From: Rhodovulum euryhalinum | Lineage (GTDB): Bacteria > Pseudomonadota > Alphaproteobacteria > Rhodobacterales > Rhodobacteraceae | Direction of reading: 5' to 3' | Assembly (NCBI RefSeq): GCF_004342445.1 | Contig: NZ_SLWW01000017.1 | Location: forward strand, 1 to 59,109 | Length of the DNA: 59,109 nucleotides | Shown here: one piece after another, positions 38,959 to 41,618 of the stretch | How the letters are laid out: the number at the start of each line of letters is the position of its first letter | How positions within the stretch are numbered: the first letter of the stretch is position 1 | Position numbers and translations under genes: made by a program | Notes under the pieces: model-generated | The model's input: the letters and a program-made list of their open reading frames with translations, nothing else | The model's database searches: none | Told to the model about the DNA's origin: nothing

Positions 38959-40041
38959 ATGGTCACGTTCACCACCATAGACACCGAATTCGCGGCCGCG
39001 ACGGGCGACAACGTCAACAGCAATGCTGGCGGCGCCGGTACGTCCACCTTCGACTATCCGCCGAACGGGACCAAGGACCTTGTCATCACCTCCAAGGAGG
39101 GCGATCCCGACCCCTATACGTTCGAGGTGGGCGATATCTACGAGGTGTCCTTCGGTGGTGCACATTCGGCCGTTCTGACCGACGCGGTGGTGATCCGCTC
39201 GGACGAGATCAGTTTTGCCAGCGGCCACGCGGTCGTGTTCGAGGGCACGGACGAGAACGGCGACCTGGTGCAGGTCGTCTGGTCGCCCGGCTTCGACCTG
39301 GAACAATGGTACTGGGACCATTTCGAGGGGGGGGTAAGCCCCGGCTTCTACGTCTACGACACCGACCCCAACTCCGAATACTCCGCGCCCGTCATCTGTT
39401 TCGAGGCCGAGACGCTGATCGCCACCCCGCGCGGTCCGGTCCGCGCGGCAAGCCTTGCGCCCGGCATGATGGTCGAGACGGTCGACCACGGCCCGCAGAT
39501 GCTGCTGTGGGTGGGGCAAAGCGTGACGCGGGGCACCGGCCAGATGGCGCCGGTGGAATTCCCCCCGGGCGCGATCGGCAATGACCGGACGCTGGTCCTG
39601 TCGCAACAGCACAGGGTGCTGCACGCCTCGCCGATGGCCATGCTGATGTTCGATACGTCCGAGGTGCTGGTGCCCGCGCGGTCCCACGCGATGCTGGGCG
39701 TGGCCGGTGCCGCGATCGTCGAGCGGCCGGTGGTGCGCTATGTCCACCTGCTGTTCGAGCGGCACGAACTGGTATGGGCAAACGGCGCCATCTGCGAAAG
39801 TCTGTTCCTCGGCGACGTGGCGCGGCGCGCCCTGGATTCCGAGGCGCGCGACGAGATCGCGACCCATTTCCCCGAGCTTGACCTGTCGGTGAAGGGGGAT
39901 GATCCGTTCGAGCCGGTCCGCCCGATCCTGCGCAGCTACGAGGCCCGCGCGCTGCTTGGCCCGCTGCGGGGCGCCGCTGGCGCGACGCCGTCCGGCTCCG
40001 CCCTTGCGTCCCGCGACATGTGCAAGCTGGCCGCCCTCTGA
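38959..40041 (+). CDS. Hint-domain secreted-type protein
   Basis: 360 residues. The N-terminal 150 residues are an acidic, beta-rich region (TFDYPPNGTKDLVITSKEGD). The Hint (Hedgehog/intein) domain starts at CFEAETLIATPRGPVRAASLAPGM with the nucleophile-like Cys, continues with LVLSQQHRVL and ends with FERHELVWANGAICESLFLGD. Proteins of this design are abundant in Rhodobacterales, often with RTX repeats and type I secretion; none has a clear function. It has no signal peptide. Start ATG 38959 follows GGAGGGA. Confidence 0.9.
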   Translation: MVTFTTIDTEFAAATGDNVNSNAGGAGTSTFDYPPNGTKDLVITSKEGDPDPYTFEVGDIYEVSFGGAHSAVLTDAVVIRSDEISFASGHAVVFEGTDENGDLVQVVWSPGFDLEQWYWDHFEGGVSPGFYVYDTDPNSEYSAPVICFEAETLIATPRGPVRAASLAPGMMVETVDHGPQMLLWVGQSVTRGTGQMAPVEFPPGAIGNDRTLVLSQQHRVLHASPMAMLMFDTSEVLVPARSHAMLGVAGAAIVERPVVRYVHLLFERHELVWANGAICESLFLGDVARRALDSEARDEIATHFPELDLSVKGDDPFEPVRPILRSYEARALLGPLRGAAGATPSGSALASRDMCKLAAL

Positions 40042-40077: not shown

Positions 40078-40170
40078 TGAAAAAAGAAACGGCGACGCCA
40101 AGGGAGGAGAGGCGCCGCCGTTCTTGACAACGGCGGTGTCAGGGAGGAGGAGACCACCCGCCGTATCCGG
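40078..40170 (-). ncRNA. Cuckoo/CcsR-like sRNA, second copy
   Basis: On the minus strand: a hairpin (40130-40164, ACGGC... stem with two G bulges) with loop UCCUCCUCCCU, a seven-base linker, then a 12-pair hairpin (40088-40122) with loop UCUCCUCCCUU, followed by UCUUUUUU at 40087-40080. The last hairpin thus doubles as a Rho-independent terminator. A position that would be an A-C mismatch on the plus strand is a G-U pair here, which supports the minus strand. Two stem-loops with exposed anti-Shine-Dalgarno loops define the Cuckoo family, known as CcsR1-4 in Rhodobacter sphaeroides. Confidence 0.8.
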
Positions 40171-40187
40171 TGGGACCTTTCGGCCCC

Positions 40188-40271
40188 GAAAAAGGTGCGG
40201 CGGCACCAGGGAGGAGGAAGGTGCCGCCGCGAGCAAAGGAAACCCAGGGAGGAGGAGGGGTTTCCCTTTCC
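40188..40271 (-). ncRNA. Cuckoo/CcsR-like sRNA, first copy
   Basis: On the minus strand: hairpin 40235-40269 (AAAGG-GAAACCC stem with one bulge) with loop UCCUCCUCCCU, four-base linker, then a perfect 11-base-pair hairpin 40197-40230 (GCGGCGGCACC/GGUGCCGCCGC) with loop UUCCUCCUCCCU, then ACCUUUUU. Both loops carry CCUCCUCCC, the motif of the Cuckoo/CcsR RNAs, which act in oxidative stress and C1 metabolism in Rhodobacter sphaeroides. There they follow a DUF1127 gene (ccaF1); no such gene is visible here. This copy precedes the second one in transcription. Confidence 0.8.
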
Positions 40272-40335
40272 GTCTGGCCCATCGAGCCGCCGCAGCGATC
40301 CCGAACCGCGACCTTGGCCGCGTGCCGTTGGATCA

Positions 40336-40363
40336 AACATACCCCGATGCTGCAGATGCACAA
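40336..40363 (-). promoter_or_regulatory. Possible promoter of the sRNA pair
   Basis: Minus-strand TTGTGC (40358-40363) and TATGTT (40336-40341) are 16 bases apart, about 65 bases before the first sRNA hairpin. It is only a weak match to sigma-70. A heat-shock sigma (RpoH) promoter, as used by CcsR genes, was not recognised. No other gene is supported in 40272-40544; the plus strand should hold the promoter of the mrp gene. Confidence 0.3.
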
Positions 40364-40544
40364 TAGCGCGCGGGTGAAATGCCGCCATGCAGAAACTGCA
40401 TAAGTCATGCTGACGTAATTTCGGGCGGCAGCGGTGGCCGTGCCGGGAAAACCGGCAGAATGGAAACGCTCTTGCCCTTCCGGCGCGGCTGACCAAGTAA
40501 GGGGGCACGATCCTTTGCCAGAAACGCCCCGAAAGGAGTCCTTC

Positions 40545-41618
40545 ATGCCCGTGACGCGTGATGCCGTGCTTGCCGCCCTGTCCCGAATCGCGCTGCCGGA
40601 CGGGGGCGATCTGGTCGCGCGCGACATGGTCCGCGCGCTGAGCGTCGAGGGCGACGCGGTGCGCTTCGTGATCGAGGCGCCCGACGCGGCCCAGGCCGCG
40701 GCGCTGGAACCGGTGCGCGCCGCCGCCCAGGAAGCGGTCGAGGCATTGCCGGGCATCGCGCGCGCCTCGGTCGTGCTGACCGCCCATGGTCCCGCGCCCA
40801 AGGCGGCGCCCGAGGGCGGGCTCAAGATCGGCCGGCATCCGACGGCGCAGGCTGGCCCCGAAAATCCCGCCGGAATCGACCGCATCCTCGCCATTGCCTC
40901 GGGCAAGGGGGGCGTCGGCAAGTCGACGGTGGCCAGCAACCTTGCCGTGGCGCTGGCCCGACAGGGCCGGCGGGTCGGCCTGCTGGATGCCGACATCTAC
41001 GGCCCCTCGCAGCCGCGCATGATGGGTGTCACGCGCCGCGCCGCCTCGCCCGACGGCAAGACCATCGAACCGGTCGTGGCCCATGGCGTCACCATGATGT
41101 CGATCGGGTTGATGATGGAGGAGGGGCAGGCCGTCGTCTGGCGCGGCCCGATGCTGATGGGGGCGTTGCAGCAGATGCTGACCCAGGTGAACTGGGGGCC
41201 GCTCGACGTGCTGGTGGTCGATCTGCCGCCGGGCACCGGCGATGTGCAGCTTACGCTGTGCCAGCGCACGCAGCTGACCGGGGCGGTGGTGGTGTCCACG
41301 CCGCAGGACGTGGCGCTGCTGGACGCGCGCAAGGCGATCGACATGTTCGCCAAGCTCAAGACGCCGGTGCTGGGCCTGATCGAGAACATGTCCACCTATG
41401 TCTGCCCCAAGTGCGGGCACGAGGCGCATATCTTCGGCCATGGCGGCGTCGCGGCCGAGGCCGAGAAGATGGGCGTGCCGCTTCTGGGGGCGCTGCCGCT
41501 GGCCCTCGAGGTGCGGCTGGCCGGCGACGAGGGACGCCCGGTCGCGCTGGGCGATGGTCCCGCGGCCGAGGCCTATGCCCATATCGCCGCGCGGCTGATC
41601 GGCGGCGGGATGGCCTGA
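40545..41618 (+). CDS. Mrp/ApbC-family iron-sulfur carrier ATPase
   Basis: 357 residues. An N-terminal MIP18-like domain (residues 1-90, LAALSRIALPDGGDLVARDMV and EALPGIARASVVLTAHGP) precedes the P-loop domain with IASGKGGVGKSTVASNLAVALA, LLDADIYGPSQPRMMG, LVVDLPPGTGDVQLTLCQ and STYVCPKCGHEAHIFGHGG with the CxxC cluster site. It is thought to bind and transfer Fe-S clusters to client enzymes. ATG 40545 follows GAAAGGAG; the ATG at 40434 adds an unconserved leader. Confidence 0.95.
   Translation: MPVTRDAVLAALSRIALPDGGDLVARDMVRALSVEGDAVRFVIEAPDAAQAAALEPVRAAAQEAVEALPGIARASVVLTAHGPAPKAAPEGGLKIGRHPTAQAGPENPAGIDRILAIASGKGGVGKSTVASNLAVALARQGRRVGLLDADIYGPSQPRMMGVTRRAASPDGKTIEPVVAHGVTMMSIGLMMEEGQAVVWRGPMLMGALQQMLTQVNWGPLDVLVVDLPPGTGDVQLTLCQRTQLTGAVVVSTPQDVALLDARKAIDMFAKLKTPVLGLIENMSTYVCPKCGHEAHIFGHGGVAAEAEKMGVPLLGALPLALEVRLAGDEGRPVALGDGPAAEAYAHIAARLIGGGMA

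Follow-up and report, generated by a model that had tools for sequence, protein, structure and literature searches.

A row of four hairpins on the minus strand of Rhodovulum euryhalinum DNA (40268-40087 of the window, the whole 59,109-nucleotide stretch that was analysed), with anti-Shine-Dalgarno loops of the CCUCCUCCC type, is likely to be a CcsR/Cuckoo array at a ccaF1-CcsR locus that has lost ccaF1, acting as a stress-induced translational repressor under predicted LsrB-type control. The array, its strand, its conservation, its orthologous place, the gene loss and the retained promoter are established at the level of sequence.

Array structure and strand

The array comprises hairpin 1 (40235..40268, 11 pairs, loop CUCCUCCUCCCU), hairpin 2 (40197..40230, 11 pairs, loop UUCCUCCUCCCU), hairpin 3 (approximately 40130..40164, 7+3 pairs, loop UCCUCCUCCCU) and hairpin 4 (approximately 40087..40123, 13 pairs, loop UCUCCUCCCUU), all on the minus strand, as the original prediction had it. 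Its figure of 11 to 12 pairs each holds for hairpins 1 and 2; hairpin 4 has 13, and hairpin 3, with an internal loop in its stem, is weaker than claimed. Three exact loops and one variant were likewise found: CCTCCTCCC stands at 40247-40255, 40209-40217 and 40142-40150, and the fourth loop, TCTCCTCCC, differs from that type by a single change. The folding energy of 40078-40271 is -96 kcal/mol (z -6.5; none of 200 shuffles folded equally well), and its four CTCCTCC sites within 160 nt compare with a maximum of two when the window was simulated 300 times with a first-order Markov model. Beyond the array, the genome holds 16 other CCTCCTCCC sites, of which one forms a clear hairpin.

Minus-strand folds were compared with plus-strand folds for hairpin 1 (-13.5 versus -12.0), hairpin 2 (-24.6 versus -24.0), hairpin 3 (-14.3 versus -14.2) and hairpin 4 (-24.1 versus -18.3); each is more stable on the minus strand, if only slightly for hairpins 2 and 3, so only hairpins 1 and 4 are clear on strand. 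A hand count over the genus alignment gave 28 G-U cells on the minus strand versus three A-C cells, which supports the predicted minus orientation. Two complete sRNAs had also been proposed. Their U-tracts are present: UUUUU at 40189..40193 (minus), 3' of hairpin 2, may be a weak terminator or an RNase E site, and the U-rich tail UUUCUUUUUU at 40078..40087 (minus), after hairpin 4, is the likely 3' end. Separate termination of the two is unsupported, because a terminator scan (one site versus 0.8 +/- 0.9 in shuffles) did no better than shuffles.

Identity and conservation

In cmscan the array gave two matches to the Rfam model CcsR1 (RF02791), one of 59.5 bits with an E-value of 4.5e-14, the other of 40.3 bits with an E-value of 2e-8. 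Neither reaches the gathering score of 65.3 bits. A CcsR match is present in 243 of 295 family genomes; 233 of these 243 miss the gathering score, which is passed by 10 of the 295. The alpha-r14 model (RF02344) scored 46.5 and 39.1 bits, below its gathering score of 58.8 bits. A whole-genome covariance model search for further copies returned only the array's two RF02791 matches below E 0.1. Elsewhere in two other genomes of the genus, a third CcsR-like match was observed (L038, G010:C1:2308270-2308356, and G008:C2:53259-53345), the former foldable as a double hairpin.

Loss of the loops in close relatives was looked for and not seen: all 16 genomes of the genus (Rhodovulum group) have the array with its loops retained. 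In their alignment 98.0% of 635 cells are paired, and two-sided changes occur in 13 of 40 pairs, a value reached by none of 500 shuffles. Within the genus the stem of hairpin 1 is conserved as much as its loop (7 of 8 pairs invariant), so the claim that stems differ while loops are kept is true of hairpins 2 to 4 only. The array has the marks of a CcsR/Cuckoo anti-Shine-Dalgarno RNA, namely adjacent loop hairpins, paired varying stems and a significant covariance model match. Judged by its sequence, it is a genuine member, though below both curated Rfam cut-offs; the RF02791 scores, the covariation and the synteny with ccaF1-CcsR loci described below all support the identity first proposed.

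An ordinary ccaF1-CcsR locus

As predicted, the array lies between a Hint-domain gene (38959..40041, plus; Pfam PF13403) and mrp (40539..41618, plus; Pfam PF10609, PF01883). The divergent mrp marks the locus; the Hint gene, which stands between uvrD and the array, is a variable neighbour, seen in 8 of the 16 stretches from the genus. Tandem CTCCTCC loops lie on the strand opposite to mrp and within 1500 nt of it in 77 of 80 named Rhodobacteraceae mrp loci, one of the misses being a locus at a contig end (L060). A home-made HMM found a DUF1127 frame in 71 of these 80 stretches, and Pfam confirmed three of the proteins (two from the genus, one from a family locus); the nine loci without one are L042, L044-L047 and L119 (Rhodovulum), L048, L055 and the contig-end L060. 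Among the 29 best family loci (L122-L150, used out of 31 with a family match), mrp adjoins the array in 28 and a DUF1127 gene is present in 25. These comparisons place the array at an ordinary ccaF1-CcsR locus divergent from mrp. The R. sphaeroides ccaF1-CcsR locus is presumably this mrp-divergent locus, to judge from the best-scoring relatives. At six loci (L052, L054, L072, L114, L116 and L121, with titles that include Sulfitobacter) the first loops are near the promoter and the DUF1127 gene follows the loops or is farther away. A second conserved block (approximately 40485-40510, ACTTGG ... GGGCAAG, minus) was observed nearer to mrp and perhaps belongs to the promoter side of that gene.

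Loss of ccaF1

The absence of a DUF1127 gene by the array, also part of the original prediction, was borne out: no match was found on the window's contig, and the five that pass the cut-off are in other parts of the genome. Within the genus, ccaF1 is retained between promoter and array in G003 and G009 only (2 of 16), and the other 14 genomes gave no DUF1127 match in that interval. The distance from TTGTGC to the first loop is 329 nt in G003 and 322 nt in G009; of the genomes without ccaF1, 13 have 91 to 145 nt, and G004, in whose leader no DUF1127 frame was found, has 221 nt. In the window a short leader takes the place of ccaF1 (40269..40330, minus; promoter to first loop 106 nt, with a putative start near 40330). 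With a leader too short and no DUF1127 match on the contig, the gene content of a ccaF1-CcsR (CIN1) locus is thus not found here.

The missing gene reflects a lineage-specific loss, with the promoter retained and now running directly into the array. In a four-protein tree G004 is sister to the ccaF1-bearing G003 (support 90; deeper nodes weak, 25 and 63), and two losses within the genus are therefore likely. The loss recurs in other genera, since ccaF1 is also missing from L048, L055, L137 and L146 (leaders of 84 to 89 nt) and from L145 (223 nt). L140 lacks both ccaF1 and a recognisable promoter.

Promoter and candidate operator

The genus alignment shows a conserved promoter block of approximately 80 nt (40336..40416, minus) with a -35-like TTGTGC (40363-40358) and a -10-like TATGTT (40341-40336); no match to the sigma-70 consensus was found in it. 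Of 80 family loci, 67 contain the pattern TTGTGCAN(2-4)GCA[AG]C and six lack the TTGTGC block. Under a slightly different, stricter pattern, which retained 69 loci, GCATRGC stands 26 to 27 nt ahead of the promoter pattern in 69 of 69. A second genomic TTGTGC..GCAGCA site lies inside an htpX-like frame and was put down to chance.

The VtlR motif CAATGCAGCCATGCA, as given in PMC12595884, came to notice after the promoter block had been found. The block contains a box, TGCATGGCGGCATTT (40377..40391, minus), which matches the reported VtlR/LsrB operator at 13 of 15 positions, begins 28 nt before TTGTGC and is the sole site in the window, scanned on both strands, with at least 13/15. Compared with the consensus GCAT-N3-TG-N3-T, it has one mismatch, within TG. 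The reverse complement of CAATGCAGCCATGCA was scored over 300 nt upstream in 79 loci (contig-end L060 excluded) and reached 14/15 in 14, 13 in 47, 12 in 12 and 11 in 6; at least 13/15 was thus attained in 61 of 79 regions, against a maximum of 11 with one shuffle per region. Boxes within the genus match 11 to 13 of 15 positions, and 22 of 29 other family loci have at least 13/15 in place. In 753,070 bases of genus DNA (both strands), chance sites away from TTGTGC numbered three at 13/15 or better and 24 at 12/15 or better.

Taking TTG as the -35 element, the box spans approximately -63 to -49. The abcR1 promoter is reported to carry its LsrB motif at -61 to -49, and LsrB activates AbcR1 (PMC8844928) as well as the Cuckoo-type sRNA NfeR1 (PMC10746234). 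Brucella VtlR is described as a positive regulator of AbcR2 and three DUF1127 genes (PMC12595884). Against such control, R. sphaeroides papers name RpoHI/RpoHII and no LysR protein for the operon promoter. Among the literature matches listed, none mentions both VtlR or LsrB and CcsR.

A candidate regulator, L353 (G000:C9:142464-143057), came from the genome's 16 LysR proteins. In a one-way comparison it is 42% identical to 9HH1, the LsrB structure (PMC11975290), with 244 bits versus 134 for the next of the 16, and 49 of 64 residues of the DNA-binding part are identical. Linkage to trxB, tried as another route to LsrB, was negative: the gene is not linked to trxB in its own genome's stretch, which was read in detail. 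NCBIfam gave no name over cut-off to three LysR proteins among the best 25 matches listed for each. LsrB has been called unique to Rhizobiales (PMC11975290, 2025), a claim that is too narrow unless the protein here is a sister type. Overall, LsrB/VtlR-type control of the array is a prediction that is well supported and probably correct, though unproven.

Distant CcaF1-like genes

A distant CcaF1-like DUF1127 gene was found in 7 of the 14 ccaF1-less genomes of the genus, and none was shown in the other seven. Boxes were tested upstream of 39 DUF1127 genes away from mrp (30 + 9), a subset of the matches. Six of the seven distant CcaF1-like genes have a box of 12 to 13/15 in the layout of the array promoter: at array spacing the box is followed by TTGTGC, which one gene replaces by TTGCGC, and then by a TAT element. 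The R. euryhalinum gene, L006 (G000:C15:50481-50579), has a box letter-for-letter identical to that of the array, and its orthologues L165, L168, L169, L173 and L174 share the layout, which was not found at the distant gene of G004. The other 32 genes tested had boxes of 8 to 12/15, just one at 12. The best of 20 shuffles hit 12/15 in 4 of 30 DUF1127 upstream regions, so 12/15 is weak alone and the layout carries the weight. From the Brucella regulon (AbcR2 and three DUF1127 genes, PMC12595884) one would expect just such an operator, shared by an anti-Shine-Dalgarno array and a DUF1127 gene.

In a short-protein tree the six form a clade of their own (0.94), apart from the mrp-locus genes, which leaves a move of ccaF1 to the distant site unsupported. 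It is as likely as a move that these genes represent an older paralogue, comparable to RSP_0557 in R. sphaeroides (PMC10673084).

Comparison with known systems

The array resembles the CcsR1-4/ccaF1 system of R. sphaeroides (RF02791) in its tandem double hairpins, loop type and TTG and TAT promoter elements, and the best-scoring relatives share the divergence from mrp; it differs in having no ccaF1 between promoter and array and in scoring under the gathering cut-off. With alpha-r14/NfeR1 of Sinorhizobium meliloti (RF02344) it shares multiple hairpins, the loop motif and an upstream LysR-type (LsrB) promoter site, there reported at -72 to -57, whereas alpha-r14/NfeR1 has three hairpins per sRNA and other promoter elements, and its model, too, is matched below cut-off. 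The Rhizobiales VtlR/LsrB regulon (AbcR sRNAs, NfeR1, DUF1127 genes) has its likeness here in the candidate 15-nt operator (13/15), the LsrB-like protein, and the box common to the array and a DUF1127 gene; here, however, the host belongs to Rhodobacterales, where LsrB is said to be absent (PMC11975290), and the gene is not by trxB.

Alternative readings

The box could instead be read by the PHB-sensing repressor PhaR, so that the array would follow carbon storage. PhaR was our first choice as reader and was then demoted to a rival that we now hold improbable. The pattern CTGCNNNGCAG, an R. sphaeroides PhaR site (PMC12542648), occurs at most 45 nt upstream of the -35 element in 55 of 74 blocks, a phaR-like gene is present in 16 of 16 genus genomes, two PhaR-type sites stand upstream of phaP in 14 of 16 (one in the other two), and two symmetrical box positions change together (Fisher p 1.7e-4, uncorrected for shared descent). 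The window box CTGCATGGCGG, however, violates the PhaR pattern. In 69 of 69 loci the central letters of the box are ATR, and the conserved stretch continues through CATTG; an LsrB box would lead one to expect this, and PhaR binding does not require it. The central letters of the phaP sites, in turn, are free to vary. An LsrB-type activator is accordingly our preferred reader.

It is about equally doubtful that the loops are decoys which mimic the 16S rRNA tail and, instead of hitting chosen mRNAs, titrate a protein or Shine-Dalgarno sequences at large. Four near-identical loops retained in 16 of 16 genomes and the lack of a single conserved target would suit such decoys, but relatives do hit chosen mRNAs, as reported for NfeR1 (PMC7143759) and for CcsR and flhR (PMC8307010). 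That GC-rich hairpins followed by T-tracts are a mere terminator cluster or repeat element of no regulatory function is very improbable, given a sole genomic copy (covariance model, E < 0.1), a fixed place in 77 of 80 loci, covariation and a conserved promoter of its own.

Separately, 9 of the 16 genomes of the genus (set L267-L282; in this genome L274, G000:C8, approximately 127984, minus) have a lone anti-Shine-Dalgarno hairpin in the interval from phaP to phaR, with two unlike stems, both paired; in two further genomes the site lies outside a loop, and in five it is absent. In other genera 7 of 29 loci carry one with stems that are unrelated yet paired (L306, L308, L310, L311, L315, L316 and L320), two of nine matches having been set aside as not beside a phasin. 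A phasin-like frame ends 22 to 42 nt before the hairpin site in eight loci checked, our own included; of three phasin-like proteins compared with Pfam Phasin_2, two pass the cut-off and one is below. The hairpin may represent an sRNA from the phasin 3' UTR that shares the loop of the array, and no mention of it was found among the literature matches listed or in the available part of PMC8625941.

Proposed mechanism and meaning

In the predicted LsrB-type scheme, a LysR regulator of the LsrB/VtlR kind would bind the candidate box (40391-40377) and act together with an RNA polymerase of the stress (RpoH) type to give a precursor that starts near 40330, ends at 40078 and is approximately 250 nt long. 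A cut by RNase E between the second and third hairpins would leave two sRNAs of two hairpins each, whose CCUCCUCCC loops could pair with purine-rich Shine-Dalgarno sequences and lower the translation of transport and carbon-metabolism mRNAs. Reported CcsR1-4 are RNase E products of the ccaF1 mRNA 3' UTR, are bound by Hfq and target flhR (PMC8307010, PMC8625941); on CcaF1 the papers disagree, one stating that it promotes their maturation (PMC10253847), the other that its excess interferes with this (PMC8307010). With ccaF1 gone, maturation here may proceed via general factors or the distant CcaF1-like DUF1127 protein encoded on C15 behind the identical box. Targets are guesses from Shine-Dalgarno matches. 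Ahead of ATG, GGGAGGAGG has 68 sites in 16 genomes and its reversed pattern 10, but any Shine-Dalgarno sequence would be expected to show such an enrichment; the genes that recur behind it encode an AMP-binding enzyme, an acyl-CoA dehydrogenase and an XdhC-like protein (four sites each) and a DctP-like transport protein (three).

CcsR/Cuckoo stress RNAs are known; what is new here is that ccaF1 has dropped out and that a VtlR/LsrB-like box stands in the promoter. On balance, we lean towards an LsrB/VtlR regulon that also exists in Rhodobacterales, in which an LsrB-like regulator would control sRNA arrays and DUF1127 genes through one promoter type, most of the genus having lost ccaF1 and 6 of the 14 ccaF1-less genomes, that of R. 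euryhalinum among them, being able to supply a CcaF1-like protein in trans. Lineages with array and promoter and no ccaF1 are natural knock-outs, so the need of CcsR for CcaF1 is directly testable in them. If the operator reading is true, the control of one redox-type LysR regulator over DUF1127 proteins and anti-Shine-Dalgarno sRNAs would extend over more than one order of the Alphaproteobacteria.
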